Positions 467-46,575 of a stretch of DNA of 46,575 bases are shown piece after piece. The position numbers and the translations under genes were made by a program. The notes beneath the pieces are model-generated. The model worked only from the letters and a program-made list of their open reading frames with translations. It did not search any database and was not told where the DNA came from. Source of the DNA: Terriglobia bacterium (GTDB lineage: Bacteria; Acidobacteriota; Terriglobia; Terriglobales; Acidobacteriaceae); the NCBI GenBank assembly GCA_020072845.1, contig JAIQGF010000023.1, positions 1 through 46,575 on the forward strand. Direction: 5' to 3'. Numbering within the stretch: position 1 is the stretch's first letter; the number at the start of each line of letters is the position of its first letter.

Positions 467-501
467 AAAGCTGAAAGCTGATAGCTGAGAGCTGACAGCT
501 A
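467..501. repeat. period-7 array, unit GCTGANA
   Basis: GCTGA starts at 470, 477, 484 and 491 and GCT at 498, an exact 7-bp period with a variable sixth base. The last unit runs into the stop codon of dacB (complement of 499-501). The same unit recurs at 15026-15113 (inverted), 15403-15434 and 19184-19213. Confidence 0.85.
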
Positions 502-2091
502 CTTCGCTTCCTCGACCACCGCGTTCGCGATCTGGTCAATGGTCTGCAGCGCCACGCGGCTGCTCAGGTTGTGATTGTTGACCATGATGGAAAACGCAAT
601 CCGCCGGCCGCGCAGCGTGGTGGCGTAACCGGACAGAGCATTCACGTTCTTCAGCGAGCCGGTTTTGCCGTGGACGCGCCCCTGCGCCGGTGTCCCGCGG
701 AAGCGCTCCGTGAGCGAACCATCCACGCCCGCCACCGGCAGCGTATCGTCGAACTGCGCCGCCCACGGCTGGCGGCTGTCATAGAGCAGCAGCTTGACGA
801 TGGCGTGGGGCGTAACCAGGTTCTGCCGCGAAAGCCCCGAGCCATCGTAGAAGGCATACTCGTCGGAGCGAATGTCGGCTTGCGAGAGGAATCCGCGCAC
901 CACCTCCGACCCCGCTTCAATCGTGCCCGCCGCACCCTTCTCGCGGCCCAGCAGGCGGAGCATCAACTCGGCGTGCAGGTTCTGGCTGGCCTTGTTGATT
1001 ACCCGGATATCGGAGACCAGCGATTGCGACTGAAATTCGCCCAGCACCAGCCCGCCAATGGTTGGCCGCGTCGTCCGCGGAATATCGCCGCCGCCCGCGG
1101 AGGCCGTTGCCGTGACGCTGAACGTGGACAGGCTCGCCAGTTCCAGGTGCTTGGCGCGCGTCCGTCCGTACACCACAATTCCGCGCTGCTCCAGCATGCT
1201 GCGGAACAACTGGGCGGTGAAGTCGGCGGGGTCTTCGATGGCCAGCGACTCATGGAAGCCGGGATCGTCTACCGGGATGTTGCCCCAGAGCGTGAGCGTG
1301 TTGGAGCCCGGCTCGCGCCCGATGGTCACGCTGCGCGGCCCGGTGCCCGCCGGCGTGGTCATGATGCGGTTGTCGAAGTGGTAGTAGTCTGGAAAAGGCG
1401 TGACGTTCATGAACGCCTTGTCGCCGGAGTGGTCGCCCGGCATGACGCTCACCAGGATCAGATTGTCGTTGATGGTCAGCGCTGACACCGGCGCGCCCCA
1501 CTCGTAGCGCATGTCTTCCTGCGACCAGCCCTCGCCGTAGCGCTCGAAAGCAAAGTAGGAATCGTCGCCGACCACGTCGCCGTCAACAAACTTGACCCCG
1601 CGCTGCACCAGTTGATCGGCCAACTGCTCCAGCACGCGCGCCCGCGGCGAATTCCGCTCCGAGCGCAAGTTGTACGCCAGCGTGCCGCCGGTCAGGTTGG
1701 GATCTCCACGACCCACCACCACAACATCGCCGCTCAGCCGCCCGTACTTGTCCAGCGACCCGGTGGTCTCGATGGTGGTGCGGAACTTGTAGTCCGCCCC
1801 GATCAGCGCCAGCACCGCCGAGGTGGTGAACAGCTTGGTATTGGAAGCCGGCGTGAACAGCTTGTCGGCGTTCTGCGTGTAGAGCGTCTTACCGCTGGCG
1901 ACATCCACCACCTCGATGCCCCAGAAAGCGCGCGCCGCGTCCGGGTGCGAAAGGATCTTTTCGATGCGGTCGGCGAGCGCGGTTGACTCGCGCGCCGGTT
2001 TCTTGTCCTTGGGTTTTGGCGCTGCAACCGCGAATTGCACTAGCAGAAAAAGAATGCAAATGCGGGCGACGGCGTGGCGGGCTCGGAACAT
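499..2091 (-). CDS. dacB: D-alanyl-D-alanine carboxypeptidase/endopeptidase (PBP4, peptidase S13)
   Basis: A periplasmic penicillin-binding protein of the PBP4 class, which trims D-Ala from or cleaves peptide cross-links in peptidoglycan. The 530-residue product starts with a hydrophobic signal peptide (about residues 8-24, ending AVAA). The serine-hydrolase motifs are all present and correctly ordered: SNTK (S83-K86, catalytic serine and lysine), the YDGSGLSRQN block at 415-424 and HGKTGS with KTG at 476-478. The long insert between the first and second motif is typical of S13 enzymes. It stands alone, divergent from folP. The gap to folP (2092-2285) contains a period-7 array and no gene. 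Family assignment is firm; the physiological role is inferred. Confidence 0.95.
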   Translation of the reverse strand: MFRARHAVARICILFLLVQFAVAAPKPKDKKPARESTALADRIEKILSHPDAARAFWGIEVVDVASGKTLYTQNADKLFTPASNTKLFTTSAVLALIGADYKFRTTIETTGSLDKYGRLSGDVVVVGRGDPNLTGGTLAYNLRSERNSPRARVLEQLADQLVQRGVKFVDGDVVGDDSYFAFERYGEGWSQEDMRYEWGAPVSALTINDNLILVSVMPGDHSGDKAFMNVTPFPDYYHFDNRIMTTPAGTGPRSVTIGREPGSNTLTLWGNIPVDDPGFHESLAIEDPADFTAQLFRSMLEQRGIVVYGRTRAKHLELASLSTFSVTATASAGGGDIPRTTRPTIGGLVLGEFQSQSLVSDIRVINKASQNLHAELMLRLLGREKGAAGTIEAGSEVVRGFLSQADIRSDEYAFYDGSGLSRQNLVTPHAIVKLLLYDSRQPWAAQFDDTLPVAGVDGSLTERFRGTPAQGRVHGKTGSLKNVNALSGYATTLRGRRIAFSIMVNNHNLSSRVALQTIDQIANAVVEEAK

Positions 2092-2203
2092 GGAAGTAGC
2101 AAGTCGAGTGTAGCACTTTTGCGGAGGCGCTCAAGACCGAGAAACACCGGCGTTAAGCTTTAGGCTCTAGGGTGACAATCTGCGCCGGCCGTGCTGCGTA
2201 ACG

Positions 2204-2236
2204 CCTAAGACCTATCGCCTAAAACCTAAAACCTCC
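2204..2236. repeat. period-7 array, unit CCTAANA
   Basis: Units start at 2204, 2211, 2218 and 2225, with a partial unit at 2232. An opposing TTAGGCTCTAGG stretch lies at 2159-2171. The array sits in the divergent dacB-folP gap, about 50 bp before the folP start. Confidence 0.75.
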
Positions 2237-2285
2237 TTAAGCCTTGCGCCCCGTGGCCTTGACCCTGTTTAATCAGCGGCACACC

Positions 2286-3179: not shown

Positions 3180-3264
3180 ACGGTAGTTGGTATTTGGTAG
3201 CTCGGGGCTGGTACTCAGGGTGGGGAGCATTTACTCGGCACATACGAGCTACCAGCTACGAGCC
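3177..3264. repeat. period-7 arrays in inverted arrangement after folP
   Basis: TAGNNGG-type units start at 3177 (the folP stop codon itself), 3184, 3191 and 3198. The opposing set ACGAGCT/ACCAGCT/ACGAGCC lies at 3244-3264 and is roughly the reverse complement, so the gap could fold on itself. No gene is in this gap. Confidence 0.7.
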
Positions 3265-3292
3265 ACCATCGGCCATTCTGTGTTGTTGCTGA

Positions 3293-3742
3293 TCAGAAGA
3301 GTTTCTTCGAATCCAGCAAAATCGTCACCGGCCCGTCATTCACCAGTTCGACTTCCATCATCTCCTGAAATTTTCCGGTCTCGCAGCGCAGCCCGGCGGC
3401 GCGAATTTTGCCGACGAAATATTCATAGAGGCGCGCGGCCTGCTCCGGCCGCGCGGCGGCATCGAACGACGGACGTTTGCCGCGGCGCACATCGCCATAC
3501 AACGTGAACTGGGAAACGGCGAGCACCGCGCCGCCGGCATCCGCGACGGCGCGATTCATCTTTCCATCAGCGTCCTCGAAGATGCGCAGTCCGGCAATCT
3601 TGTCCGCCAGGTAGTCGGCGTCGGCTTCGGTGTCGTCCTGCGCCACCGCGAGCAGCACCAGCAGGCCATGCCCGATTTCGCCGACAAGCTCGCCGCCGAC
3701 CTTCACCGACGCCCGGCTCACGCGCTGCACCACCGCTCGCAT
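3293..3742 (-). CDS. dtd: D-aminoacyl-tRNA deacylase
   Basis: Removes D-amino acids mischarged on tRNA, a translation quality-control hydrolase. At 149 residues it has the standard length. It shows the N-terminal [13 protein letters not shown] strand, the SQFTLYGD catalytic block and the C-terminal NDGPVT loop carrying the Gly-cisPro motif used for chiral proofreading. It is monocistronic and convergent with folP. The assignment is firm. Confidence 0.95.
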
Positions 3743-3770
3743 GGCTTCAACCTACCACGGAGATCGGCCA

Positions 3771-3920
3771 CCACGGAGACACGGAGGAAAATAGAATTGG
3801 TAATTTCGTAAATTTGTAATTTGGTAATTTAGGCGGAAGGTGCCGCGACCCCGTCTTTCAAATTACTAAATTACGAAATTACCCAATTACCAAATCCCCT
3901 CCGTGTCTCCGTGCCTCCGT
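3771..3920. repeat. large palindromic repeat with period-8 arrays
   Basis: The outer arms CCACGGAGACACGGAGG (3771-3787) and CCTCCGTGTCTCCGTG (3898-3913) are reverse complements. Inside, GTAATT-type octamers (3799-3830) oppose ATTAC octamers starting at 3862, 3870, 3878 and 3886. The whole could form a long cruciform or RNA hairpin in the divergent gap between dtd and the first amidohydrolase. No gene is present. Confidence 0.8.
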
Positions 3921-3998
3921 GGTGCACTCGCTCATTGACCTACTCGGAACCCGCAGCCTAGAATCGCCGCTTCGTCCATATCACCGTGGAGTCTGCCG

Positions 3999-6700: not shown

Positions 6701-6711
6701 TTTCAGGTTCA

Positions 6712-6821
6712 GGTTGTCGGTTCTCGGTTGTCGGTTGTCAGTTTTCCTTCTGGGCGCGCGCAGCGATTCACCACAGCCGAGGACTGGTTACCGAAAACCG
6801 ACAACCGAAAACCGATAACTC
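6712..6821. repeat. inverted pair of period-7 arrays (GGTTNTC / ACCGANA)
   Basis: GGTTNTC units start at 6712, 6719, 6726 and 6733. The reverse-complement set ACCGANA starts at 6791, 6798, 6805 and 6812. The first array begins about 11 bp after the amidohydrolase stop. The intervening 6747-6790 and the stretch to 6925 show no gene. Confidence 0.85.
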
Positions 6822-6925
6822 CCGGTGCGCAACAAAGGTAACGCCCCGAGTACTTAACACTGCTTACGTCCACTCGCAATCCGCAGTAACATCGGATGCT
6901 GAGTTCCTAAACAACAGGGGATCCG

Positions 6926-7750: not shown

Positions 7751-7780
7751 CGGCGGAACAATCTGGACCCGAGCGAGACG

Positions 7781-8272: not shown

Positions 8273-8316
8273 GGGTCTTCCCTCCGCGGGGTGGCTCTGC
8301 CACAGATTGTGCGAGG

Positions 8317-9267: not shown

Positions 9268-9294
9268 GCGTACGTTCAACAGCATTTCCGTTCG

Positions 9295-9383
9295 TCAGTT
9301 TGTCCGATAGTCAGTACAGCACGACGAGTACGAGCTTGAGGTCCGCAGCTGACAAACTGACATACTGAAAAACTGACAAACTA
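9295..9383. repeat. inverted period-8 arrays bracketing the plsX-fabD gap
   Basis: TCAG/TCCG units at 9295, 9303 and 9311 face the reverse-complement set with CTGA starting at 9349, 9357, 9365 and 9373. The last unit runs into the plsX stop codon (complement of 9381-9383). An intra-operon hairpin between plsX and fabD is likely. Confidence 0.8.
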
Positions 9384-10406
9384 CTGCGAGCCGGCGCCGG
9401 AGACCCCCGCCTTCGCCAGCCCGCGCGCAATCGCCGCGTTGATATTCGCATTGGCAAACTCGGAGGCCACGCGAATTGCGTTCTTGATGGCGTGCGCGTT
9501 CGACGACCCATGGCTGACGATGCACACTCCCTTGATGCCCAGCAGCGGAGCGCCGCCGTATTCGGAGTAATCGAGGCGCTTCTTGAATTCTTCGAAGGCG
9601 CGGCGCGACAGCAGGAACCCAACCTGCCGCGTGATGGTGGCGCGCAGCGTTTCCTTCAGGATGTAGCCGACGGTTTCCACCAGTCCCTCGGAAACCTTCA
9701 GCGCGACGTTGCCGATGAAGCCATCGCAGACGATCACGTCCACTTTGCCGTTGTATAAATCGCGGCCCTCGACGTTGCCGACGAACTGCAGCGGCAGTTG
9801 TTTCAAGAGCTGGTGCGCGGCGCGCGTCAGCTCGTTGCCCTTGGACTCTTCCTCGCCAATCGAGAGCAGGCCTACGCGCGGATGCTCGGCGCCGAAGATG
9901 GCGCGCGAGTAAATCTCGCCCATCACCGCCCACTGCTCCAGGTTGTGCGGCTTGGAGTCGACGTTGGCCCCGACGTCGAGCATGATGCTCGCCGTCCCCT
10001 GCGCGGTGGGAAAAACCGCGGCCAGCGCGGGTCGGTCCACGCCGGGCAGCGCGCCCAGCACCATCTTCGCCGTGGCCATGGCCGCGCCGGTATTTCCGGC
10101 GGTAATGAACCCCGCCGCCTTGCCGTCGCGCACCAGGCGCAGCCCGACCCGCAGCGTGGAATCGCGCTTGGCCCGCACCGCCTGCGCCGCCTTCTCGTTC
10201 ATGCCGATCACTTCGCTGGCATGCACCACCTGCATCTGCTCCAACGGCGCGGAGGGGTGGTGACGCAGTTCGTCGCGGACCTCATCTTCCGGCCCGACCA
10301 GCAAAACGTGGATGTCGTGGTGACGCGCGGCCAGGATCGCGCCTTCGACTTCCGGTTTCGGGGCGCGATCCGAGCCCATAGCGTCGACGGCGATGACCGT
10401 GGTCAT
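9381..10406 (-). CDS. plsX: phosphate acyltransferase PlsX
   Basis: Converts acyl-ACP to acyl-phosphate, feeding phospholipid synthesis at the membrane. At 341 residues it is full length, beginning [19 protein letters not shown] and containing [31 protein letters not shown] and [14 protein letters not shown]. It lies between rpmF and fabD in the conserved operon order. The gap to rpmF (10407-10469) contains a CAGGCTT period-7 array at 10411-10438. Confidence 0.95.
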
Positions 10407-10410
10407 GAAT

Positions 10411-10440
10411 CAGGCTTCAGGCTTCAGGCGCCAGGCTTCA
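10411..10440. repeat. period-7 array, unit CAGGCTT
   Basis: Units start at 10411, 10418, 10425 and 10432, about 5 bp upstream of the plsX start codon and inside the operon's rpmF-plsX gap. Confidence 0.8.
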
Positions 10441-10469
10441 ACAACGATGGAGCGCCGGGCCCGTACGGC

Positions 10470-10655: not shown

Positions 10656-10707
10656 AGTGTTTCCGTTTGAATCTCATGTTTTCGTCCAGGGCTTCGGCGC
10701 GTCGGAA

Positions 10708-10745
10708 AATTTGAAATTTTGAAATTTCAAATTTCAAATTTTTCA
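10708..10745. repeat. A/T-rich period-8 array ending at the yceD stop
   Basis: GAAATTTT/GAAATTTC/AAATTTCA-type octamers run from about 10708 to 10742, partly palindromic. They end at the yceD stop codon (complement of 10743-10745). The composition is strikingly A/T-rich against the GC-rich surroundings. Confidence 0.75.
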
Positions 10746-11294
10746 GTGCTCCAGCTTTTCTTGCAGATCCTTCAGCGCTTGCCAGCGCGGATCGGCGACC
10801 GGCGGCGGGCAGTGGCAATCGCTTTCGTTGAGGTTGCGTCCGCAGCTCGGGCACAGGCCCTTGCATTCCTCGCGGCAAACCACTTTCATCGGCACCTCCA
10901 GCAGGATCTGCTCCCGCAGGATGTCCGCCAACTCGACGCCGTCGCCCACGTAATAGCCGATTTCCGCCTCGGCCTGCGTTACCGAGATCTCTTCCCGCCC
11001 CGCATCCACGCCCCGCGGGCGGTATAGCAACTCGAATTCTCGCGCCACCTCGCGGGTCACCGGCTCCAGGCAGCGGGCGCACGCCGTTTCCACCGCGGTC
11101 GCCAGCTTGCCCTGGACGCGAATGTCCAGGATGGCGCCCTGGTTGCCGTGACGTTCTTCGATCAGTGTTGCCCGGCCACTGGTGAGCAGTGGCGCCGACT
11201 GGCGCATGTCTGGACCGAGATCGATCGTTTCCGGGGGATATTCCTCCCGAAAATTGATCTCCTTCTGGACCAGAACTTGCAGGCTGATGAACAT
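10743..11294 (-). CDS. YceD/DUF177 family protein
   Basis: A 183-residue member of the DUF177 family, linked in many bacteria to rpmF and thought to act in large-subunit rRNA or ribosome maturation. The C-terminus contains the family's cysteine-rich stretch (CKGLCPSCGRNLNESDCHC), likely a zinc site. It opens the yceD-rpmF-plsX-fabD operon. The start codon is ATG at 11294. The family call is confident; its biochemical role is inferred from relatives. Confidence 0.88.
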   Translation of the reverse strand: MFISLQVLVQKEINFREEYPPETIDLGPDMRQSAPLLTSGRATLIEERHGNQGAILDIRVQGKLATAVETACARCLEPVTREVAREFELLYRPRGVDAGREEISVTQAEAEIGYYVGDGVELADILREQILLEVPMKVVCREECKGLCPSCGRNLNESDCHCPPPVADPRWQALKDLQEKLEH

Positions 11295-11410
11295 CTCGGT
11301 ACTGCCCTAAGCGCAACCCCATCAGGCCCTTACCCGGGGGCAGCACAGACGGCAGAATTCTCCCTGGGGCAAAACTAAAGAATAAAGGGCAGAGCGAGAG
11401 GTGTCAATGC

Positions 11411-13759: not shown

Positions 13760-13767
13760 TGCGGTGC

Positions 13768-13846: not shown

Positions 13847-13878
13847 GCAATTGCAAATTACCAATTACAAATTGCCAA
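13847..13878. repeat. period-8 A/T-rich array before alr
   Basis: CAATTGCA/AATTACCA/ATTACAAA/TTGCCAAT octamers end about 5 bp before the alr start codon at 13883. The A/T-rich composition stands out against the GC-rich flanks. Confidence 0.65.
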
Positions 13879-13882
13879 TGTC

Positions 13883-15025
13883 ATGAGACCCACTTGGGCG
13901 GAGATTTCCCTCAGCGCGCTGCGCCATAATTTCCGCCTGATCCACCAGCACGTCGGCCCCGAAGTCACCGTCTGCGCCGTCATCAAGGCCGACGCCTACG
14001 GCCACGGCGCACCCGAGTGCGCGCGCGCCTTGCAGGAGGCCGGCGCCACCTGGTACGGCGTGACCTCGACCGAAGAGGGCATCAAGATCCGCGAAGCCGG
14101 CGTCACCGGGCGGGTGCTGTTGATGACCGGCTTCTGGCGCGGCGAGCAGGAAGACGTGGTCCGCCACCATCTGACGCCGACCGTCTGGGAGTGGTGGCAG
14201 ATCGGCGCGCTGGAAGCCGCGCTCGGCAAAATCAACGCTCCGCCGCGCTCCTTTCCCGTGCACATCAAAGTCGACACCGGCATGGCGCGCCTCGGCGTGC
14301 CCGACTACTTCATGAACCTCTTCCTGAAGCGCATCCGAGCCGCCGAACCCATCGAACTCGAAGGCGTGTTCAGCCACCTCGCATCGGCCGAGGTGCTCGA
14401 TGCCGAAGACGCCAAGCACCAGGCGCAGCGCTTCGCCGAATTCGAGCAGTTCATTGTCCAGCACGGTTTCTCGCCCCGCTTCCGCCACATCGCCAACAGC
14501 GCCGCCGTCGGCGGTCGCCCGTCGCTATGGCGCAACATGGTGCGGCCGGGAATGTTGCTCTACGGCTACGGCCTGCCGCTGATGCGCACCGAGGACGATC
14601 CCGAAATTCCGCACCCCTTGGCCGTCGAGCGCGTGCTTTCCTGGAAAACCAAGATCATCTCCATGAAGGACGTGGGCGCCGGCCAGACCGTCGGCTACAA
14701 GGCTGCCTACGTCACCAATCGCCCCACCAAGCTCGCGGTGCTGCCGGTCGGCTATGCCGATGGACTGTCGCGTCATCTCTCCTCGCGCGGCCGCGTGATC
14801 GTGCGCGGAACCTACGCCCCGATGGTGGGAATCATTTCCATGGACATTACGGTCGTGGACGTCACCGATGTGAACGGCGCCGCGCTCGGCGATGAGGTCA
14901 CCATCCTCGGCGCCGACGGCGACTGCATGATTGACGCTTGGGAGCACGCCCGCCTGGAAGCCACCATCCCCTACGAAGTCCTCTGCCGCGTCGGCGGCCG
15001 CGTCCGCCGCATGTACAAGGAATAG
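13883..15025 (+). CDS. alr: alanine racemase
   Basis: PLP enzyme interconverting L- and D-alanine for peptidoglycan. Its 380 residues start MRPTWAEISLSALRHN. The PLP lysine lies in VIKADAYGHG (K35), the second catalytic tyrosine region is VGYKAAYVT, and the C-terminal domain shows VLPVGYADGL and PMVGIISMDITVVDVT. A short ORF start at 13883 is the only sensible one. The stop codon is fused to the start of a period-7 array. Confidence 0.96.
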   Translation: MRPTWAEISLSALRHNFRLIHQHVGPEVTVCAVIKADAYGHGAPECARALQEAGATWYGVTSTEEGIKIREAGVTGRVLLMTGFWRGEQEDVVRHHLTPTVWEWWQIGALEAALGKINAPPRSFPVHIKVDTGMARLGVPDYFMNLFLKRIRAAEPIELEGVFSHLASAEVLDAEDAKHQAQRFAEFEQFIVQHGFSPRFRHIANSAAVGGRPSLWRNMVRPGMLLYGYGLPLMRTEDDPEIPHPLAVERVLSWKTKIISMKDVGAGQTVGYKAAYVTNRPTKLAVLPVGYADGLSRHLSSRGRVIVRGTYAPMVGIISMDITVVDVTDVNGAALGDEVTILGADGDCMIDAWEHARLEATIPYEVLCRVGGRVRRMYKE

Positions 15026-15113
15026 CTGTCAGCAATCAGCTATCAGCTCTCAGCTCTCAGCTCTCAGCTCTTGGCTCTCAGCATTCGGCCGTCGGCCGTC
15101 AGCCGTCAGCTCT
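15026..15113. repeat. long period-7 array directly after alr (inverted GCTGANA)
   Basis: From the alr stop codon onward, TCAGCTN/CTCAGCT-type heptads repeat about twelve times. Read on the minus strand the unit is the same GCTGANA seen at 467-501. It faces the plus-oriented copy at 15403-15434, so the 15026-15453 gap is bracketed by complementary arrays. Confidence 0.85.
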
Positions 15114-15138
15114 GAGCTAGACGCATACTTCAACGGTT

Positions 15139-15380
15139 GTCATCCTGAGCGAGGAGTCGCCCGATTTTGGCGACGCCGAGTCGAAGGCCCCCTACCCTGC
15201 CGCATCACCCGAAATGCCCGCTCGCTCTTCAACGCGCACATCTCGATGTACCTAGAAAGCCCCCAAGAAATCGTAGGTCCCGGCGCCCTCGCGTGTCAGC
15301 GCCGTAGGCGCGAATGAAAATAGCCCGGCACTTCAGTGCCGGGAACGTCACCTCGCGAAATCCAAGTCCCGTAGGGACGG
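15139..15380. repeat. cluster of dispersed repeats and mini-hairpins
   Basis: This gene-free stretch contains a diverged CCTGAGCGA...AGTCGAAGG repeat with an inserted hairpin (15141-15189), GCGCC-GTA-GGCGC (about 15299-15311), a perfect 8-bp stem CCCGGCAC/GTGCCGGG (15324-15343) and GTCCC-GTA-GGGAC (15366-15378). The two GTA-loop hairpins resemble the short palindromes of REP-type elements. No coding signal is seen. Confidence 0.6.
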
Positions 15381-15402
15381 CTGAGTCGCCAGCGGCTACA
15401 AG

Positions 15403-15434
15403 CTGACAGCTGATAGCTGATAGCTGACAGCTTT
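15403..15434. repeat. period-7 array, unit GCTGAYA
   Basis: GCTGACA, GCTGATA, GCTGATA and GCTGACA follow in exact register and end about 20 bp before the alpha/beta hydrolase start. It is the complement-oriented partner of the array after alr. Confidence 0.85.
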
Positions 15435-17552: not shown

Positions 17553-17612
17553 GAAGTCGCGAGTCCCGAGCGGCGCAAAGTCAATGCTCGGGACTCGGGA
17601 CTCGGGACTAGA
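17553..17612. repeat. inverted period-7 arrays before rpiB
   Basis: AGTCGCG/AGTCCCG heptads (from about 17554) oppose CTCGGGA units starting at 17587, 17594 and 17601. The second array ends about 10 bp before the rpiB start codon. Confidence 0.8.
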
Positions 17613-17621
17613 ATACTGATT

Positions 17622-18080
17622 ATGAAAATCGCACTCGGCGCCGATCACGCGGGCTTTCCGCTCAAGGAAAAGATCCGGCAGTGGCTCACCGAACAAGGCC
17701 TCCAGGTGGACGACAAGGGCACGCTGTCTCTCGATTCGGTGGACTACCCGGACTACGCGCGCAAGGTCGGCGAAGCGGTCGCGGCCAAGAAGGCGGACCG
17801 CGGCGTGCTGGTGTGTGGCAGCGGGATCGGAATGTCCATCGCGGCCAACAAGGTGCCGGGAGTCAGGGCGGCCAACGCGCATACCGTATATGAGGCGCAG
17901 ATGAGCCGCGAGCATAACGACGCCAACGTGCTCACGCTGGGCGCGCGCGTGCTCACCGACGACGAGGCGCACAGCATTCTCGATATGTGGTTGCGCACCA
18001 AGTTCGCCGGCGGCCGGCATCAGCGGCGGGTGGAGAAGATTGCGCAGATCGAGAAAGAGGAAAGAGTACCGAGTACCTAG
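17622..18080 (+). CDS. rpiB: ribose-5-phosphate isomerase B
   Basis: Interconverts ribose-5-phosphate and ribulose-5-phosphate. Its 152 residues contain MKIALGADHAGFPLKE, the catalytic cysteine in LVCGSGIGMSIAANK, and NDANVLTLGARVL. The C-terminus FAGGRHQRRVEKI is characteristic. Proximity to glyA is a common bacterial arrangement. The stop codon lies inside an AGTACCG period-7 array. The identification is firm. Confidence 0.95.
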   Translation: MKIALGADHAGFPLKEKIRQWLTEQGLQVDDKGTLSLDSVDYPDYARKVGEAVAAKKADRGVLVCGSGIGMSIAANKVPGVRAANAHTVYEAQMSREHNDANVLTLGARVLTDDEAHSILDMWLRTKFAGGRHQRRVEKIAQIEKEERVPST

Positions 18081-18092
18081 TACCGAGTTGCG
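18065..18092. repeat. period-7 array spanning the rpiB stop codon
   Basis: AGTACCG (18065), AGTACCT (18072), AGTACCG (18079) and AGTTGCG (18086) are in exact register. The rpiB stop TAG (18078-18080) is part of the array, so the last few codons are array sequence. Confidence 0.85.
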
Positions 18093-19183: not shown

Positions 19184-19213
19184 GCTGAGAGCTGACGGCT
19201 GATAGCTGAGAGC
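19184..19213. repeat. period-7 array, unit GCTGANR, before glyA
   Basis: GCTGAGA, GCTGACG, GCTGATA and GCTGAGA in register, ending a few bases before the glyA start. It is the same unit as at 467-501 and 15026-15434. Confidence 0.85.
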
Positions 19214-19218
19214 TTCCT

Positions 19219-34686: not shown

Positions 34687-34699
34687 ATTGGGGAGGCAA

Positions 34700-35140: not shown

Positions 35141-35200
35141 CCCGTGGGCCGGTTCGGATCGGAATCGCGGCTCCCCAGCTTTGTGCTGGGCCGCGCGCCA

Positions 35201-37549: not shown

Positions 37550-37555
37550 GGTCCC

Positions 37556-38008: not shown

Positions 38009-41000
38009 GGCTCTTTCCTCTCTTGTAATTCGACCTGCACCTGCGGCGCGGCGGGCAGCGTCACCACGAACGTGCTGCCCTCGCCCGGCGCGCTGTGCGC
38101 GGTGATCGTGCCTTCATGCCGCGCCACCACCTTGCGGCAGATCGCCAGCCCCATGCCGCTGCCTTCGTACTCAGTCCGCCCATGCAGCCGCTGGAACGGG
38201 CGGAAGATCCGGTCGAGATATTTCTCCTCGAACCCAATCCCGTTGTCGCGCACGCTGATCTCGCTCCAACCGCGCCCGGTGGTCCGGCCTTCGATCACCA
38301 CGTGGGGCCTGGTACCGGGCCGCTGGAACTTGAGTGCGTTGCCCACCAGGTTCTGCACCAGTTGTCGCACCTGCATCGGGTCGGCCATCACTTGCGGCAT
38401 GGCCGCGACCTCGATCCGGGCATGCGATTTCGCGATCCGCTCTTCCATGTCCGCCACCACCCCGAAGACCACGGCCAACATGTCCACCAGTTGGAAGGGC
38501 AGGGCCCGCGTCGCCACCCGCGAGTACTCCAGCAGCGCATCGATCAGCCCCGACATGCGCTGCGCCGCGTTCTGCATCCGCGCCAGGAAATCCCGCCCCA
38601 GATCGTCCAGCTTGTCTCCGCTGTGCTCTTTCAGGTGCTCGCCGAACGCCAGCACCTTGCGTAACGGCTCCTGCAGATCGTGCGACGCGATGGAAGCGAA
38701 GTCCTGCAGCTCGGCGTTGCTGCGCTCCAGTTCCTCCATGTTGCGTTGTGCTTCCGACTCTGCCCGTTTTTGTTTCGTGACGTCCCGCGCCGCCGCGAAT
38801 ACGCCTTTTATCTCCCCCGCTTCGCTGCGGAACAGGGTGGCGTTGTACAGGACGTCGATAACCTGGCCCGAAATGTGCCGGATGGCGAGCGCGTAGTCCT
38901 GCACCATGCCCTTCGCGAACACTTGCTGGTAGCCATCGCGCGCCTTCCTGGGTTCCGTGAAGTAGTCGCAAAAATCGCTGCCGATCAGCCGATCGCGCGC
39001 CACCTCGGTGATCGTTTCCGTCGCCCGGTTCACGTCCGTGATCTTCCCCTCGCGGCTGATGGTCACCAGGGGATCCAGACTGGCCTCGAGCAACGACCGC
39101 GCATAGTACTGCTGTTCCTGCAGCCGGCGCTCCGCCAGCTTCCTCTCCGTGATGTCGCGCGCCGCCGCGAATACGCCCTCCACTTCACCGTCCTGATTAC
39201 GGAACACGGTGGCGTGGTAGAGCACGTCGGTGAGCCGGCCCGAACTGTGTCGGATGGCTAGCGGGTAGTCCCGAACAAACCCTTCCGCGAACACCTGCTG
39301 GTACCCGGCGCGGGCTTGCTCCGGCTCGGAGAAGTAATCGCAAAAATCGCTGCCGACCAGTTCCTCGCGGCTCACGCCGGTGACCGATACCGTCGCCCGG
39401 TTGACGTCCGTGACTTTCCCCTCGCGGCTGATGGTCACCAGCGGATCCAGGCTGGCCTCAATTAGCGACCGGGTATAGAACTGCTGCTGCGCCAAGCGGC
39501 GTGCCGTGTGCTTGCGATCCGTAATATCGCGCGCAATGCTGGATGCGCCGGTGATCCGCCCGCCGGGATCGTGGATGGGCGATACCGTAACCGACACATC
39601 ACATCGTGTTCCGTCTTTCCGCAGCCGTACCGTCTCGTAGTGCTCAACCGTCTCACCCCCTCGAATGCGTTCCAGGATCCGCTCGACTTCGTCGCCCTGC
39701 TCGGGCGCGGCAAGTCGCGCCACCGGCTGGCCCACCATCTCCTCGGCCGTATAGCCGTAGATCTTCTCCGCCCCGCGATTCCAACTGAGAATCCTTCCTT
39801 CCATATCCTTGCTGTAGATCGCGTCCTCGGAGGACTCTACGATTGCCGCCAGGTAGCGCATCCGGTGCTCGGCCTGCTCGCGTTCGGCGCGCATGCGCAG
39901 CATGCGGATGCCGTACCCCAGGTCCTGCGCCAGCTCGGCCAGCAGCTTCAGTTCTTCGCCCTGGAAAGCTCCTTTTTGCGTGGAATAAATGGTCAGCCCT
40001 GCCGGCAGGCTCTCGCCGATATCGACCGGCAGGCACACGGAGGAGTGAAAGCTCTTGCTCAGCGCCCGCTCCCGCCACGGACCAAAGCGCGGATCGGTGG
40101 AGGCGTCGTCGAGAGTCACGGTCTTCCCGGTTCGTATCGCCGTTCCCGTCGGTCCTCGCCCGCGCTCCTCGTCGGCCCAGGTCACCAGCCCGGGCGTGAG
40201 ATAGTCCTTCGCGACGCCCTCAGCCGCCACCGCCCGCACCGTCTTGGCTTCGTCCTGCTGCGGATGCCCCACCCACGCCAGCGCGTATCCGCACTGCTCC
40301 ACCAGGATGCGGCACACTCCCTCCAGCAGGGACTGCTCGTCCGGCGCGTGGAGCAATAGCTGGTTGCAGTCGCTGAGCGCGCGCAAGGCCCGGTTCATTC
40401 GCTGCAGTTCCCTTTCGGCTTGCCGGCGCTGCTCGATCTCGGCCGCGAGTTGGAGGTTGCTCGCCGCCGTCGCGCGCGCCTGCCGCCGCGCCATCTGCGC
40501 CAGCGCGATGGCGCCAGCCGCCAGCAGCGAGATCACCAGTCCCAGCGCCAGCGTCACCTCCGGGGACGAGCTGTAGATCTTGACTGGATACCTGCGCTCC
40601 GCGTCGAGCGCCTGCCACAGCAGGGCGGAGGCGCTTGCCAAGCCGGTAAGGACCACATAAGCCAGCCAGCCGGGCGCCGCTCCCGCCTTCGTGGCCGCCC
40701 AGGCCAGCGCCCCATTGCCTATCCCCAGGATCACCAGCGATACCGCGGTCAGCAGCGCCATCGGCGTGGAGGCGATCCAGGTGTAGGCGGTCGCCAGGGA
40801 GATGGCGTATCCCAGCAGGGCGGCCAGCCCCAGCACCGCGACCGCCGATCCCAACAAGCCGATGAGCGGCGCGCGCAGAGCAAAGCGCCATCGGCCATTG
40901 GCCAATGCCAACGCTGCGCCAGCCGCGATGAAACAAAGGGCGGTGTTCGGCGCCATGCCTCCCGGGTGGGAAAAGCCGGGCAGGTACGCCCGGCAGAGCA

Positions 41001-41385: not shown

Positions 41386-41601
41386 GGATTCACTCGGCGT
41401 GGCGAAGTTAGTACCGACTCACGCTAGCACGCGGTGGCGCGGGCAGCGCAGAAGAGCGCCTGCGCCGTACCACGCCAAATCCCGGAAAGACCCGCGGTTT
41501 CACATCGGAACGCCGAAGCATCGCCACGATTGTTGTGCACATCCGCCTTGTGCCGCCGCAGTTCTTCTTTTGTATTGGTCGTCGGAAGGGGGCTACAGCG
41601 A

Positions 41602-41632
41602 CAATAAAATGCCGCCCCACTCGGGACGGCAT
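41602..41632 (-). terminator. rho-independent terminator of nifJ
   Basis: On the minus strand ATGCCGTCCC and GGGGCGGCAT form a 10-bp stem (one G-T pair) with a GAGT loop, followed by TTTATT. It is about 30 bp beyond the nifJ stop codon. Confidence 0.75.
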
Positions 41633-41635
41633 TCC

Positions 41636-41665
41636 TAATCGCTATTCGCTAATTGCTAATCGCTA
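41636..41665. repeat. period-7 array ending at the nifJ stop, unit TAATCGC
   Basis: TAATCGC (41636), TATTCGC (41643), TAATTGC (41650) and TAATCGC (41657) in exact register. The last unit runs into the nifJ stop codon (complement of 41663-41665). Confidence 0.85.
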
Positions 41666-44600
41666 CTTCAGTCCGGCCAACTCCTGCAGTCTCCGCCAAT
41701 TCTCCAAGCGGTCCTGCTGCGCCGCCTTGATGGCCTCGTCGGGATTGCCGTCGGCGTCGAAGTGCCGCGAGAATCGGCCCTCCGTCTTGGCGAAGCTGAT
41801 GAAGTCCACGGTCTGGTTGTTCCGCGGATCCACGTACCAGTCTTCTTTCACCGCCGGGTTGCCCGCCAGGCTCAGCCGCTCGCGGAACTTCTCGCCCTTG
41901 CGCGGATCGTAAACCAGCAGCGGAAACGCCCTCGACTCCACCGCCAGCTTTTCCTGCAGCATCGAACGGTCGTCGGCCACTCCGTGCTCCGGTTGGCAGG
42001 TGGTATAGGCAATCACCACCGCCGGCCCGGGATACTCGTTGGCCGCCATGATCGTCTTGTAGAAGTGGCTGGGATTGCCGGCGATGGTCTGCGCCACGAA
42101 GGCGTTGGGGTGCATCATCATGATCTGCGCCATTTCCTTGCGATGCTCCGTTTTTCCCCCGGGGTTCGCTTTGCCCACCGCCGCCATCTTGGCATCCTGC
42201 CCGGTAAAGGTGGACGTCGAAGCCTGCCCGCCGGTGTTGGAGTACACCTGCGTGTCCAGCACCAGCACCTTGATGTCCATGCCCGAGGCCAGCATCCGGC
42301 TCAGCGACTGGAACCCGATGTCGTACATGGCGCCGTCGCCGCCCAGGCACCACAGTTTGTACTCGTCGTGGCCTTCCTGGTGCCAGCGCAAACGGATACC
42401 CATCGCGTCCGCCGGCGCGTTCTCGAACAGCGAGTTCGTCCACGGCACCGTGTACGGGTTGAACGGATAGGTCGAACCGTACACGCTGTTGCACCCGGTC
42501 GCGCCTACGATGCCGATCTTGTCCGCCCCATAGACGAACCCGGTGGCCGCCAACATTAGCCGTATGGCCGTCGCTTCGCCGCAGCCCATGCACGATCCGG
42601 CGCCGCCCACGAACAGTTGCGAGCGGTGTGCCAGCATCATGTCGCCCAGCGCCTTCTCGTTCAGCAGCCGGGCCGGCGTTTCCGGCAGGTGATGATAGAG
42701 GTCCATCATCAAATCCATCCGGCTGACGTTTCCATTCTTCGGCTTCATCGCCAGCGCCTTGTGGCTGCCGCAGGCCACCACGCACTCGCCGCAGCCCTTG
42801 CACTTGTCGGGGTCCACGAAGATGCTGAACAGCCCGCCCTGCTCGCCTTTCTTTTCCGGAATCGCCCAGTACTTCTGCGTCTTGACGAACTCCGCCTGCA
42901 ACTCCGCCCGCATGGCCGCGATCTCGACCTTCGCCAACTGCTCCTGCAGTGCCTCCGGCTCCACCACCTTGCCCAGGATGGCGGTGTCCGGGCAGGCGCT
43001 TACGCACTCCATGCAGCCCACGCAATTTGCCGCTACCAGTTCGGGGATGTCGGGCGCCAGGGTGCGGAAGCTGCGCCGCATGGCGCTGGCCGCCGGCATG
43101 AAGCTGCGACCCAGGTATTCGTCGGCGGCCAGGTCGCTTTCCTTGCCGCGGGCGTAGTTGCCGATCACGTGCTCGCAAAAGTCCGCCTCCACCACCTCCG
43201 GTTGCGCCGTCGGGATGTCCGCGACCTGGAACTTGTACGATTTCTCCGCTGCCAGTTCCACGTCCTCGGCCGGCGGCGTAATCAGCGCCACTTCCTCATA
43301 TCCGCGCCGCGCCGCGTTGATGTTGTCGTCCACCACCGACCCGCCGCGCTTGCCGAAGTACTTGGTCAAAGTCGTACGCAGCAAGCCGAACAGTTTCTCC
43401 GCGTCCAGTCCGGCCTTCGCCGCAAACGGCGTCAGCTTCAGGAACGCGCCCAGCAGCACGATGCCCTGCATGCGGATCTGCAGGTCCGCCCGCGTGGCGC
43501 ACTCGCGCGCGATCTTCTGCGCGTCCAGCGCGTACAGCTTCAGCTTGCGCTCGCGGATCGTCTGGCGCGCCTTCAGCGGCAGGCTACGCCACACCTGGTC
43601 TTCGTTGTGCGGCAGGGTTGATTGCAGGTAGATCGCGCCCTCCGGCCTCAGTCCCGCCAGCGGGTCGCCGCTCCGGAACGCGTTCTGGTCCTGGATGGCG
43701 ACAAAGTCCACCAGGTTCAGCTCCGCGTGCATCCGGATCACCTCCGGCGCCAGCGTCAAGTAGTAATTTGTCGGCAGGCCCTTCTTTTCCGAGCCGTACT
43801 TGGGGAACGCCTGCGCGTACAGGTTGAACAGATCGCTCGCCACCGCCGCGATCACCTTATTAGTAGTCACCGACCCAAACCCGCCCACCGAGTGCCCGCG
43901 TAGCGAGAACGCCCCTTCGGGCCGCACGTCCGGATCGACGGTGATTTCCAGCGCGTCCGGGTGCCTCACGCCCAGCACGAATGAGCGTTTGCCGCCGCCG
44001 TTCACCATGTTGTATGCCGCCGCCACGAAGTGTCCCGGACGCAGGTCGCGCCCGCCCAAGCCCGCCACGCCCGAATAAATTTCCGGGATGTGCCGGATGC
44101 GGTCGCCGCTGGTGCCCATGTGCGCATCCGCCAGCGCCGCCTTCACCTCCACCGACAGCGGGTTCGACTCCATCAGCGGGACGTCGCAGCGCTCGATCAC
44201 CGCCGCCGCCTTCACGTGTTGCAGGGCCAGCGCCAGCTCCCACGAGGGGAACGGCCGGAAGCTCACCACCGTGATCGCGCCGATGTTCATGCCCTGGCTG
44301 CGCAGGTAATCCACGGTCGCTTCCGCCGTGTCCATCATCGAGCCCATGCCGATGAGGGCGTACTCCGCGCCTTCCATCCGGTATCGCTTCAGGAAATCGT
44401 AGCGCCGCCCGGTCAGCTTGCCGTAATCCTCGAAGGCGTTCGACAGCGCCGGCGACACCCGGTCGTAGAAGTAGCGCTGCGCCACCTTGCCCTTCATGTA
44501 GCTGTCCTGGTTCTGCACGCAGCCGGTGAGCACCGGCTTGGCCGGGTCGAACAGCTTGCGCAGCCGCAGCTTGGGATCGCCGATGAAGTCCTTCATCAGC

Positions 44601-45220
44601 TCTTCTTCCGGCAGCCGGATCGTTTCCAGCGTGTGCGTCGTCAGGAACCCGTCCTGGATGTTCATGAACGGCGTTTCGCTGTCCTCGGCGGCGCGCCGCG
44701 CGATGATCGCCAGGTCGGCGGCTTCCTGCGCGTTGCGGTTGAACAGCATGCCCCAGCCCACGTCGGCCACGCCCATCACGTCGTCATGCCCGGCGTGCAC
44801 GTTCAGCGAATGCGAGGTCAGCGCCCGCGCTCCAATGTGAAACACCACCGGCAGCCGCTTGCCGCTGATCACGTACAGCACTTCCTTCATCAGGATCAGC
44901 CCCTGCCCGGAGGTGAAGTTGGTCACCCGTCCGCCGGCCAGCGCGAACCCTTCGCACGCCGACGCCGAGCTGTGCTCCGATTCCGGCTCCAGGAACACCA
45001 CCGGCTCGCCCCACAGGTTCTTCGTCCCGTTGGCGAACTCCACCGCGAAGCCATCGCCCATCGGCGTCGAGGGCGTAATCGGATACGCGCACGCGCCCTG
45101 CGAGATGTGGCTCTCCACCCACACCACCGCGCCCGATCCGTCGGTCGTCGTGACCACGCCCGGATAGCGGACGCCCTTGGTCGCCTCGGCCGGTTTTTTG
45201 ATTTCGATCGCTGTTGCCAT
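41663..45220 (-). CDS. nifJ: pyruvate:ferredoxin (flavodoxin) oxidoreductase
   Basis: A 1185-residue single-chain enzyme interconverting pyruvate plus CoA with acetyl-CoA and CO2 using low-potential electrons, a full-length fusion of the gamma-alpha-delta-beta type. Order: AYPITPSTPMGDG (TPP domain I), alpha and gamma domains, two 4Fe-4S motifs CVGCMECVSACP (about 733-744) and CKGCGECVVACG (about 807-818), then SCMGCGEATA and the TPP motif GDGAMYDIGF through VYSNTGGQ. The second cluster's last Cys is followed by Gly instead of Pro. Start fixed by GAGAGGACGAA. It implies anaerobic or microaerobic capacity. Confidence 0.96.
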   Translation of the reverse strand: MATAIEIKKPAEATKGVRYPGVVTTTDGSGAVVWVESHISQGACAYPITPSTPMGDGFAVEFANGTKNLWGEPVVFLEPESEHSSASACEGFALAGGRVTNFTSGQGLILMKEVLYVISGKRLPVVFHIGARALTSHSLNVHAGHDDVMGVADVGWGMLFNRNAQEAADLAIIARRAAEDSETPFMNIQDGFLTTHTLETIRLPEEELMKDFIGDPKLRLRKLFDPAKPVLTGCVQNQDSYMKGKVAQRYFYDRVSPALSNAFEDYGKLTGRRYDFLKRYRMEGAEYALIGMGSMMDTAEATVDYLRSQGMNIGAITVVSFRPFPSWELALALQHVKAAAVIERCDVPLMESNPLSVEVKAALADAHMGTSGDRIRHIPEIYSGVAGLGGRDLRPGHFVAAAYNMVNGGGKRSFVLGVRHPDALEITVDPDVRPEGAFSLRGHSVGGFGSVTTNKVIAAVASDLFNLYAQAFPKYGSEKKGLPTNYYLTLAPEVIRMHAELNLVDFVAIQDQNAFRSGDPLAGLRPEGAIYLQSTLPHNEDQVWRSLPLKARQTIRERKLKLYALDAQKIARECATRADLQIRMQGIVLLGAFLKLTPFAAKAGLDAEKLFGLLRTTLTKYFGKRGGSVVDDNINAARRGYEEVALITPPAEDVELAAEKSYKFQVADIPTAQPEVVEADFCEHVIGNYARGKESDLAADEYLGRSFMPAASAMRRSFRTLAPDIPELVAANCVGCMECVSACPDTAILGKVVEPEALQEQLAKVEIAAMRAELQAEFVKTQKYWAIPEKKGEQGGLFSIFVDPDKCKGCGECVVACGSHKALAMKPKNGNVSRMDLMMDLYHHLPETPARLLNEKALGDMMLAHRSQLFVGGAGSCMGCGEATAIRLMLAATGFVYGADKIGIVGATGCNSVYGSTYPFNPYTVPWTNSLFENAPADAMGIRLRWHQEGHDEYKLWCLGGDGAMYDIGFQSLSRMLASGMDIKVLVLDTQVYSNTGGQASTSTFTGQDAKMAAVGKANPGGKTEHRKEMAQIMMMHPNAFVAQTIAGNPSHFYKTIMAANEYPGPAVVIAYTTCQPEHGVADDRSMLQEKLAVESRAFPLLVYDPRKGEKFRERLSLAGNPAVKEDWYVDPRNNQTVDFISFAKTEGRFSRHFDADGNPDEAIKAAQQDRLENWRRLQELAGLK

Positions 45221-45319
45221 TTCGTCCTCTCTTCTCGCGCGCACACGAGGGCACGCTGTCGCCTGGAAAGGGTGCTTATGAATTCGTATGAGTAGTGCCG
45301 GGCCGGTCTCCTGCCATCT

Positions 45320-45600
45320 TTGGATTCTGCCTGGATGCCCTCCGCCGGAGCATTGCCGTCACCTCGCAGAAGTGAAGGCGACGGACCATCCGTCATGGGC
45401 GCCTGCGGGGTCCCCAACAAGCGCCGCTTTTGCGCTTGATGGGGTGCCCAAGCGTCCCCTTCACCCCTGGCCTGAAGCGAGGCTTCAGTCCCATTATTCA
45501 TGGTCGTCCTACCCCTACGGAGGGGCAGTGATAGGGGTCACCATCAGGGGTGATAGAACTCACTTCCGCGCGCCCCCGCCGGGTCTACTCTGGGCATGTA
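45320..45600. repeat. nifJ upstream region with hairpins and AGGGGY repeats
   Basis: No gene is convincing between 45245 and 45686. The region includes CAAGCG/CGCTTG (about 45418-45438) within GGGGTCCCC-like palindromic sequence, CCCCTACGGAGGGG (about 45511-45525), and AGGGGY at 45521, 45533 and 45546. The 45340-45500 part looks like a dispersed extragenic repeat; the AGGGGY set is a possible regulatory array for nifJ. Confidence 0.45.
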
Positions 45601-45686
45601 ATCGTGGTTGTGTGGCGCACGTGCCCTCGCGTGTGCCCTGCGGTTGAGCTTCGATAGGACTGGCGGCTTTTGCCGCTGAGGTACCT

Positions 45687-46553
45687 GTGCTCGCATCTGG
45701 CAACTCGGGTCTCGCAACTCTCCCCGCCATCGATGTTCTTTTTCACCCTAGCGCACGCCCCGCCGCCGGCCCCTGCCCGCTGCTTCCGCCCACCGACGCC
45801 GCCATGGACGCCGCCGGAATCGCCCGCGTGCTGGTTTCGCAATGCAAGCGGTGGTCCTGCGAGCGCCAGTGGATGTGCGTGGACACTCGCCTGGATGATG
45901 TCCTGCGCTACACCGCGTCCTCGCCGCGCTTCATCGGCCTTGCCGGCTACAATCCTTTCGACATCGCCGAAAGCTTCCGCGAAATCGAGTTCGCCGTCAC
46001 CACCCATGCGTTCCGCGGCGCCTACCTGCATGCCGACAGCTTCCGCCTGCCGCTCACCGACGCACGCCTGTACCCGCTGTTCGCCAAGGCCGCCGAACTT
46101 GGCGTACCCGTACTGCTTCAATCTTCCCCGGTTCCCAGCGGCGATCTCGACCGCGTGACCGCCGATTTTCCGGATCTTTCCCTCGTCCTGGCGCAGGCCC
46201 GCCCGCAGTTGGCGGACCTCACCGCCATCGCCGCCGCCTGCGAAAACGTCTACTTCGCCCTCGACCCCGGCGCCCTGGTCCACCTCATCCACCAATGGAC
46301 CGCGCTCGCCGTCGCCCACGACGAATCCAGTTCAAGATTTCTGTCGGAAGTTTTTCAACAGCGATGTATGTGGGGCAGCGCCTCGCTGGATTGGTGTGAC
46401 GCCCTGCGCTCCGTCAATTCCTTGCCCTTGCTGCCCGAAACCCGCGCCTGTTTCCTCCGCCGCAATGCCGAGCGCGTCTTCGCACTCGATCAGCCCGCCG
46501 CGTCGCGCACCCCGCGTTCCGCCCTCACCGAAGTCCTCGCCGCCGAACGCTGA
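45687..46553 (+). CDS. amidohydrolase-fold (TIM barrel) protein, metal site incomplete
   Basis: A 288-residue protein of the amidohydrolase_2 type: IDVLFHP strand 1, GLAGYNPFDIAESF, GAYLHADSF, LGVPVLLQSS, FPDLSLVLAQARP and WGSASLDW near the end. The usual HxH after strand 1 is reduced to a single His (DVLFHP), and the usual GSD acid region reads GSA. It may be a non-metal or one-metal enzyme such as a decarboxylase-like or lactonase-like member. The start is GTG 45687, because strand 1 needs it, and the first ten codons overlap a period-7 array (45690-45717). Confidence 0.72.
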   Translation: MLASGNSGLATLPAIDVLFHPSARPAAGPCPLLPPTDAAMDAAGIARVLVSQCKRWSCERQWMCVDTRLDDVLRYTASSPRFIGLAGYNPFDIAESFREIEFAVTTHAFRGAYLHADSFRLPLTDARLYPLFAKAAELGVPVLLQSSPVPSGDLDRVTADFPDLSLVLAQARPQLADLTAIAAACENVYFALDPGALVHLIHQWTALAVAHDESSSRFLSEVFQQRCMWGSASLDWCDALRSVNSLPLLPETRACFLRRNAERVFALDQPAASRTPRSALTEVLAAER

Positions 46554-46575
46554 CTCCTGACTACTGACTACTGAC
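46549..46575. repeat. period-7 array at the last gene's stop codon
   Basis: CTGACTC, CTGACTA and CTGACTA units begin inside the TGA stop codon (46551-46553) and run to the window edge, where the array is cut. Confidence 0.7.

Follow-up and report, generated by a model that had tools for sequence, protein, structure and literature searches.

Tandem arrays of seven- and eight-base units between the genes of a Terriglobia bacterium: often paired, polar, and possibly arms of foldback hairpins

The stretch of DNA examined here, referred to as the window, comprises bases 1-46575 of a contig (C23) of a Terriglobia bacterium, whose genome (G000) amounts to 4.23 Mb in 27 contigs. Kinship places it among the acidobacteria: the closest PlsX relative, at 92% identity, belongs to a 'Terriglobia bacterium' MAG, and Acido-Lenti-1 RNAs occur in the window. 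Among others it carries genes for a peptidase S13, plsX, yceD, alanine racemase, rpiB and glyA, and the gaps between its genes contain short tandem arrays of 7-base or 8-base units, here called heptads and octads. A sequence-only reading of the window had described these arrays as a family with a common period and differing units. The arrays are often arms of palindromes, with one polarity in this genome and its relatives. We tentatively favour the explanation that they are tandem-arm foldback hairpins, evolving in place by concerted change of both arms.

Results

The occurrence of period-7 and period-8 arrays in gaps was confirmed as real. For the statistics, the window was combined with 20 further stretches of 20 kb, at positions preset blind to their content, giving a sample of 446,575 bases. 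Genes were called with a simple home-made codon-usage caller, so that 'gap' is an approximate term; the gaps totalled 82,654 bases. Arrays were detected by period, with Tandem Repeats Finder used in addition for the window, and ten Markov-1 shuffles of the gaps served as the null. The gaps contained 88 arrays of period 7 and 24 of period 8, and the coding DNA of the sample, although more than four times as long, contained only 16 and 1. Period 6 gave 10 gap and 4 coding arrays, period 9 gave 1 and 6, and periods 4, 5 and 10 gave 0, 0 and 3 in gaps; the shuffles yielded 0.0 arrays at every period from 4 to 10. A 50-kb control stretch of E. coli held no period-7 and one weak A/T period-8 gap array. 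The merged set comprised 111 gap arrays, a density of about one per 4 kb.

Autocorrelation at lags 7 and 14 gave identities of 0.279 and 0.271 in the gaps, compared with 0.254 at both lags in coding DNA, so that the predicted lag-7 peak is indeed confined to gaps. Background identity in gaps was 0.254-0.260 at most lags other than multiples of 3 or 7, and coding DNA displayed the codon period alone. The gap value at lag 21 (0.268) is little proof, 21 being also a multiple of 3. At lag 8, where a peak was likewise predicted, the plain autocorrelation is weak (0.261); the octads stand out in the array counts.

All nine arrays named by the sequence-only reading (at 467, 15403, 19184, 6791, 18065, 10411, 17587, 41636 and 3862) are present, displaced by at most 3 bases. 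Its estimate of fifteen or so array-bearing gaps agrees with the 16 merged window arrays of the detector; further short arrays, at 2202, 3182, 3243, 16604 and 18064, were picked up by Tandem Repeats Finder. The longest window array (15029-15118) has about 12 units. The central description, a common period of 7 (or 8) with differing units and far commoner in gaps than in genes, also holds. Its interpretation was supported in part overall, and it had overlooked the inverted pairing, with polarity, of about half of the arrays.

This pairing was assessed by looking for inverted or direct matches within 500 bp that scored higher than the 95th percentile of a control set of partners taken from other loci. 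An inverted partner was found for 57 of the 111 gap arrays (32 above the 99th percentile), and a direct partner for 4 (3 above the 99th). Arms were compared in 37 inverted pairs, 24 of them from this genome, with loops of 3-282 nt. The left arm was G/T-rich in 32 pairs, and the right arm was likewise A/C-rich in 32; a split of 32/37 has p = 7e-6. Arrays nearer the left side of a gap comprised 41 G/T, 8 A/C and 4 neutral cases, and those nearer the right side 35 A/C, 12 G/T and 6 neutral cases; in the G/T versus A/C control with array-free gaps, the values were 48.5% and 50.9%. The polarity holds at stops on either side and at left-side starts, and is weak at right-side starts (13 to 9).

Arrays lie close to genes, 64 of 106 being within 12 nt of a gene edge, compared with 37.9 for random placement (maximum 52 in 500 runs). 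No preference for a type of gap was observed, arrays being present in 14 of 64 divergent, 14 of 53 convergent and 48 of 164 tandem gaps (p = 0.53, 281 gaps), and a role as intrinsic terminators was rejected for want of a convergent-over-divergent preference.

The two arms of a pair have their unit in common, and the variants at the variable positions differ. Agreement between arms was 0.847 when aligned from the outer ends, 0.834 from the inner ends, and 0.841 as the mean of the in-phase registers. That all in-phase registers are about alike fits out-of-register copying and not one-time mirror copying; exact mirroring by one snap-back copy was rejected on this ground. A mismatch rhythm of 14 nt, hinted at by three folds, was not upheld in the 37 pairs, where a spacing of 7 was commoner than 14. 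Inverted words flanking the arms on the outside measured 4.67, compared with 3.91 after shuffling (sd 0.23), which indicates that some arms extend beyond their called ends. Predicted RNA folding of four paired elements gave z values of -3.85 to -9.60.

Table 1. Arrays and arms in the window, with neighbouring gene features
Position	Strand	Feature	Remarks
466-500	+	Heptads AGCTGAN, five units, right-arm type	Overlaps stop codon of peptidase S13 gene (499-2091, minus strand)
3182-3268		Weak heptad pair GGTAGTT ... TACCAGC	Within gap 3180-3292
3772-3786	+	Outer left arm CACGGAGACACGGAG	Inverted partner of 3899-3921
3797-3830	+	Inner left arm, octads AATTTNGT	Retained by G001 and G002, lacking in G003
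3860-3895	+	Inner right arm, octads NAAATTAC	Inverted partner of 3797-3830
3899-3921	+	Outer right arm, octads CTCCGTGN	Unit common to G. metallireducens class 2 and G180
6712-6746	+	Left arm, heptads CGGTTNT
6790-6819	+	Right arm, heptads ACCGANA	Predicted fold with 6712-6746: -52.6 kcal/mol, z -3.85
9290-9315	+	Left arm	Partner of CTGACANA octads
9349-9382	+	Right arm, octads CTGACANA	Flush with plsX 3' end (9381-10406, minus strand)
10410-10436	+	Heptads CAGGCTT	Just upstream of plsX; without clear partner; shorter version in G001 and G002
10707-10741	+	Self-complementary A/T-rich array AAATTTG/AAATTTC	At yceD 3' end (10743-11294, minus strand)
13849-13879	+	Heptads CAATTAC	Precedes alanine racemase gene
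15029-15118	+	Left arm, about 12 heptads TCAGCNN	Begins at alanine racemase stop codon
15401-15432	+	Right arm, heptads AGCTGAN	Partner of 15029-15118; ends at next predicted start codon
17555-17570	+	Left arm AGTCGCGAGTCCCGAG	Partner of CTCGGGA heptads
17587-17609	+	Right arm, heptads CTCGGGA	Precedes rpiB
18064-18088	+	Heptads AGTACCG	Spans rpiB 3' end; Tandem Repeats Finder
19184-19214	+	Heptads AGCTGAN	4 nt ahead of glyA (SHMT) start
41635-41665	+	Heptads CTAATCG	3' end of gene 41663-45244 (minus strand)
46550-46575	+	Heptads CTGACTA	Window's end

The window elements are listed in Table 1. The four arms between 3772 and 3921 form nested palindromes, the inner pair lying inside the outer. 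For the array at 466-500, a partner was looked for in the window and none was found; among three congeners (G001-G003), G001 and G002 have the same array at this gene end, and G003 has none. In the gap 3180-3292, G001 has AATTTGGT octads instead of the GGTAGTT/TACCAGC heptads.

Other features were noted along the way. A copy of the Acido-Lenti-1 RNA (RF01687) at 15298-15343 (minus strand) sits between the arms 15029-15118 and 15401-15432. This RNA gave 17 matches in the 446,575 bases, two in the window (the other at 213-258, minus strand) and 15 in the 20 stretches (L031, L033-L035, L037 and L046-L048), including three that cluster at L047 2570-2876, a span of about 300 bases; in appearance it resembles an interspersed family of palindromes more than a single sRNA (small RNA) gene. 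The window also contains a fluoride riboswitch (RF01734, 33344-33421), and a 372-base imperfect tandem duplication (79% match, 38776-39486) inside the gene for a 1134-aa PAS/GAF histidine kinase. The PlsX sequences of L100, L107 and L117, titled Bacillota, Acidimicrobiia and Actinomycetota, are 57-63% identical to the acidobacterial query, above all Geobacter-type matches, and it looks as though the labels are wrong or the bins mixed.

The sequence-only reading had taken the units to be specific to their gaps, and this was contradicted. Among period-7 unit pairs taken across stretches, 212 of 3527 agreed with at most one mismatch, compared with a mean of 78 and a highest value of 93 after letter shuffling; for period 8, the figures were 33 of 230, with a shuffled mean of 1.9 and a highest value of 6. 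In 138 AGCTGAN units, position 7 was A 23, T 46, G 41 and C 28 times, the other six positions being 88-100% conserved, a figure inflated by seeds that demand the core. Counting overlaps, this genome matches the pattern AGCTGANAGCTGANAGCTGA 54 times. AGCTGAN arrays are patchy in the phylum, being present in 10 of 119 genomes, and the reversed control pattern (AGTCGAN) was matched 30 times by G172 and once each by G009 and G148.

Beyond this genome and its congeners, the detector was positive in gaps of G009, G172 and the Geobacteraceae genome G180. G035 had one gap array in three stretches, and there was none in five stretches (100 kb) of G162 or three of G020; G162 does hold AGCTGAN arrays elsewhere in its genome. 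Inverted partners were found for 5 of 19 arrays in G172 (direct, 3), 6 of 12 in G180 (direct, 0) and 1 of 7 in G009 (direct, 0). Polarity was in the expected direction in 10 of 17, 5 of 12 and 4 of 5 arrays of these genomes, respectively, which does not support its generality. The CTCCGTGN octads occurred in 4 of 22 genomes tested; 17 matches lie in G180, where three neighbouring pairs stand in minus/plus order, as in the window.

Two of these genomes contain further repeats. Near-perfect TTTGAGGA / TCCTCAAA octad arms of about 80 bases are present in G172 (L213-L217), those at L214 12958-13040 and 13111-13187 facing each other, and these elements are apparently young. G180 has perfect ACTCCTG heptad runs of 9 and 15 copies (L221 6474-6595, L222 15962-16101), adjoining an array of another unit, as if one unit had recently expanded.

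The congeners G001, G002 and G003 (coding identity 0.82-0.84, four-fold sites 0.58-0.64) were compared over 47 orthologous gaps located in at least one of them, using gap-wise anchored alignment. The retention line for arrays was set at 0.65 identity, the L044 gaps being mostly judged from statistics alone; this score yields false positives, such as the L031 9442 arm, which scored as kept in G001 (0.71) despite differing units. Between congeners, arrays are either conserved above coding level or absent. Their identities were bimodal, with 21 of 82 array comparisons at 0.85 or above, versus 31 of 261 control segments, and 27 of 82 (32.9%) below 0.40, versus 21.8% of the control. Retention at 0.65 was about equal (39 of 82 arrays, 88 of 174 control segments), the arrays differing merely in being more extreme. 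In retained arrays, invariant columns were 0.87 identical and variable columns 0.73, retention itself having required 0.65.

The element at window 3742-3998 has its two inner arms and its outer right arm preserved in G001 and G002, with loops that cannot be aligned; G003 lacks all of these arms. Arms are kept and loops are free at L031 8334-8442 in three species, and at L046 13103-13252 in four, but there the left arm is below the retention line in G003. At other orthologous sites the unit itself differs: the gap at window 6700 has CGGTTNT heptads or CAGTTT hexads depending on species, and at L031 9438-9509 both arms differ, with CAGTCTT in G000, AGTTGGT-type units in G001 and none in G003. 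Presence or absence among congeners was observed at window 3742-3998, L046 11755-11972, L031 9438-9509 and the riboswitch insert described below. Evolution in place, raised as a possibility in the sequence-only reading, is supported in part.

A cobalamin riboswitch (78 bits) was matched at L033 808-1042 (minus strand), and a heptad palindrome at L033 853-927 forms an insert between positions 151 and 152 of the riboswitch model. Each of 14 genomes searched has one such riboswitch, and the aligned core is the same in the congeners. Inserts were extracted by text pattern from 13 of the 14; G008 was unmatched, and G011, whose match begins too early, was not used. In G000 the peripheral loop contains GAGTTNT heptads and in G001 it contains AGTTTCT heptads; that of G002 has GTTTCA hexads. 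The loops of G003, G006 and G010 are without insert, that of G009 carries a one-armed GCTGANT array, and no heptads were seen by eye in those of G004, G007 and G012-G014 (57-130 nt).

The filled loop regions (100-113 nt) have predicted folding energies of -52.4 (G000), -45.2 (G001) and -37.1 (G002) kcal/mol, and the folding z of the insert region is -6.31. Paired with their own partners the arms gave -53.8, -46.8 and -39.4 kcal/mol, compared with -19.6 to -36.3 with partners from the other species. The outer letters common to the three filled loops (GAGTT ... AACTG) suggest one ancestral hairpin, and the riboswitch is the clearest case of a hairpin that seems to outlive its unit. Heptad hairpins can occupy functional RNAs, where covariance models treat them as inserts.

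Discussion

In the explanation that we tentatively favour, a foldback element would consist of two arms, each a tandem array of one 7- or 8-base unit, lying between genes, often flush with start or stop codons, and in one known instance or more within the peripheral loop of a structured RNA. Every unit of one arm is able to pair with every unit of the other, so the arms could form one long hairpin in any register. Slippage inside an arm, and template switching between arms (out-of-register quasi-palindrome correction), would spread a variant unit through both, and the hairpin would persist while the unit, and sometimes the period, shifts from gap to gap and from species to species. Selection, where acting, would be on having a stem, which might insulate neighbouring transcripts or extend a peripheral RNA helix, and not on its sequence. 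We infer both template switching as the homogenising step and the stem as the selected trait.

Several observations weigh against foldback hairpins of this kind. No partner above threshold was found for 54 of the 111 gap arrays, and polarity has no place in the model. Unit-size indels were not in excess at retained arrays (4 of 108, in noisy alignments; control, 62 of 795 multiples of 7), so that ongoing unit slippage is not seen. The recurrence of units genome-wide and across phyla is unlike free drift in place. When arms were paired within or across species, with the split point chosen within species, within-species pairing was stronger in 20 of 22 array gaps and in 19 of 19 control gaps; this test cannot separate arrays from control gaps, and the riboswitch alone is pinned by homology. 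Even there, independent insertions at the loop may have occurred. Predicted folding does not prove that a hairpin forms in the cell, and a lone arm (15024-15118) also out-folds its shuffles (z -3.70).

Another possibility, which we consider rather unlikely, is that the arrays are bound by a single sequence-specific protein or by a small number of such proteins (nucleoid or global regulators), the sites being arranged as inverted pairs at variable distance, with the period as the packing distance of protein dimers and the free unit position as an uncontacted base. Ribbon-helix-helix operators, such as omega heptads and MetJ 8-bp boxes, are unspaced 7- or 8-bp sites bound by a dimer, and their period would agree with that of the arrays. 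The free seventh base of AGCTGAN fits operators, as do the invariant columns of retained arrays, more identical than the variable ones, four-fold sites or coding DNA, the excess of comparisons at 0.85 or above, the recurrence of the CTCCGTGN unit and its pairing in G180, and a placement blind to gap type. To recognise the many unit families, and the differing units at orthologous sites, a large number of proteins or a very lax specificity would be needed; a riboswitch loop would be an odd place for an operator; and the comparisons below 0.40 show elements that come and go. Since retained cores are conserved and some units cross phyla, operator arrays are close behind foldback hairpins, and both leave the exact value of the period in this genome unexplained. 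Broadly, operators are the kind of reading given for the repeats of G. metallireducens (PMC2700814).

Less probable again is that a transposase such as Y1 moves the elements as units, which would make them miniature mobile foldbacks. REPs are moved in this way by RAYTs, which are Y1 transposases; nine Y1_Tnp matches are present in the genome, units recur above chance, and elements are present in one congener and absent in another at the four sites given above. Against mobility, the 24 pairs of this genome have no direct-repeat flanks (mean longest common word 3.58, shuffled 3.75), their loops of at least 12 nt have no sequence in common, bar one 13-base match, and paired arms differ at variable positions. 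By eye, there was no clear crowding of arrays near eight of the nine Y1_Tnp places. As a separate observation, one Y1 transposase locus (L196 1241-1374) contains direct repeats with a step of 19 bases (GGCACGACTGA ...) and an inverted copy.

Plain replication slippage of local sequence, one of the causes considered in the sequence-only reading, is doubtful to a slightly greater degree. PMC4679880 cites Mrazek 2007 for two points: that among long simple repeats heptads are the most frequent in most genomes, and that the polymerase favours slippage at 7 nt. Period-7 and period-8 arrays in unrelated genomes, including the long near-perfect ones of G172 and G180, are consistent with slippage. Alone, however, it gives no inverted pairs (57 arrays, versus 4 with a direct partner), no recurrent units (212, versus 78) and no arm polarity (32 of 37), and the missing excess of unit-size indels further strains a reading that is already strained.

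Control at the RNA level, by bidirectional terminators or translation regulators beside stop and start codons, seems very unlikely. The closeness of arrays to gene edges would be explained by it, but divergent, convergent and tandem gaps did not differ significantly, and no T-run follows the few window palindromes that were read by eye.

Least probable of all is telomere-like repeat addition, in which both 3' ends of a double-strand break would be extended by an enzyme adding a G/T-rich unit of 7-8 nt and joined head to head on healing. If true, it predicts features observed in this genome: a single unit for each pair, variants that arise separately in either arm as the result of a loosely copied unit position, an inward G/T strand, presence/absence between relatives and mostly intergenic survival. 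Among the readings, only this unproved end-addition mechanism would explain the polarity. Against it stand the recurrence of units and their persistence at orthologous sites, the weak polarity of two other genomes, and a reverse transcriptase match that is single in the genome and cut by a contig end.

Relation to known repeat systems

Earlier reports of heptads are scattered over cyanobacteria, Beggiatoaceae, Geobacter and Xanthomonas, with roles guessed differently each time; here they are dense in one genome, many of them in inverted pairs with a polarity. With dense paired arrays, and a riboswitch in which a hairpin persists while its unit changes, the old question of slippage, protein sites or structure becomes testable. 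Among chiefly non-subscription papers, we found none that describes repeats of this kind in Acidobacteria, or cobalamin riboswitches with heptad hairpins.

Like REP/REPIN sequences, which are reportedly palindromes tagged GTAG/CGTC, the present elements are dispersed extragenic inverted repeats; unlike them, their arms are tandem arrays of several units and not one conserved hairpin. Vioque is said to have described, in 1997, cyanobacterial STRR heptads inside RNase P RNA. The cyanobacterial STRRs resemble the arrays in being dispersed and short, some of them inside structured RNA genes; the RNase P RNA of the window has no heptad or octad array inside.

The TAACTGA heptads of marine Beggiatoaceae, for which a control role at the RNA level has been proposed, occur as 169 direct sets plus a single indirect repeat and mostly precede start codons (PMC4679880). 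The present arrays likewise include heptads beside gene starts, and the form AACTGA+N matches some right-arm units. That system differs in having a single unit, in nearly all cases direct.

The sequence-only reading had held that cyanobacterial heptanucleotide repeats, a known parallel, have one unit, whereas PMC2700814 and PMC4476775 describe several units both in G. metallireducens and in the trnL intron P6b of Nostoc. For G. metallireducens, PMC2700814 lists 'predicted global regulator binding sites' of classes 1-3, in which octa- or heptanucleotides stand 3-5 in tandem. Two of the classes are paired sites of octad type and another has five heptads; a four-heptad element is described as well. 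Classes 1 and 2 are multicopy pairs on opposite strands at variable distance, class 1 has insertion elements at fixed distance from the sites, and binding by an IHF/HU-type global regulator is the proposal made there. The likeness extends to tandem units of 7-8 nt, 3-5 copies per site, pairing on opposite strands and several classes. The class 2 unit TCTCCGTS[Y], the only class compared, is the same as that of the window's CTCCGTG octads (3899-3921). The present genome differs from what is described there in its density of arrays and in having more units.

In Nostoc and Calothrix, PMC4476775 describes trnL intron P6b stems built on one of two heptad classes, with repeated shifts of class at one site. 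The cobalamin riboswitch resembles this published case in that heptad arms form a peripheral stem of an otherwise intact RNA, and in that the class of unit differs at the same site in relatives. The P6b class II unit given there, NNTGAGT, even fits the riboswitch unit TGAGTTN of G000 when rotated, which could be chance. Unlike P6b, which belongs to a group I intron, the host RNA here is a riboswitch in another phylum, and a single case with two heptads and one hexad. By this analogy, the riboswitch insert would work like P6b but is not P6b.

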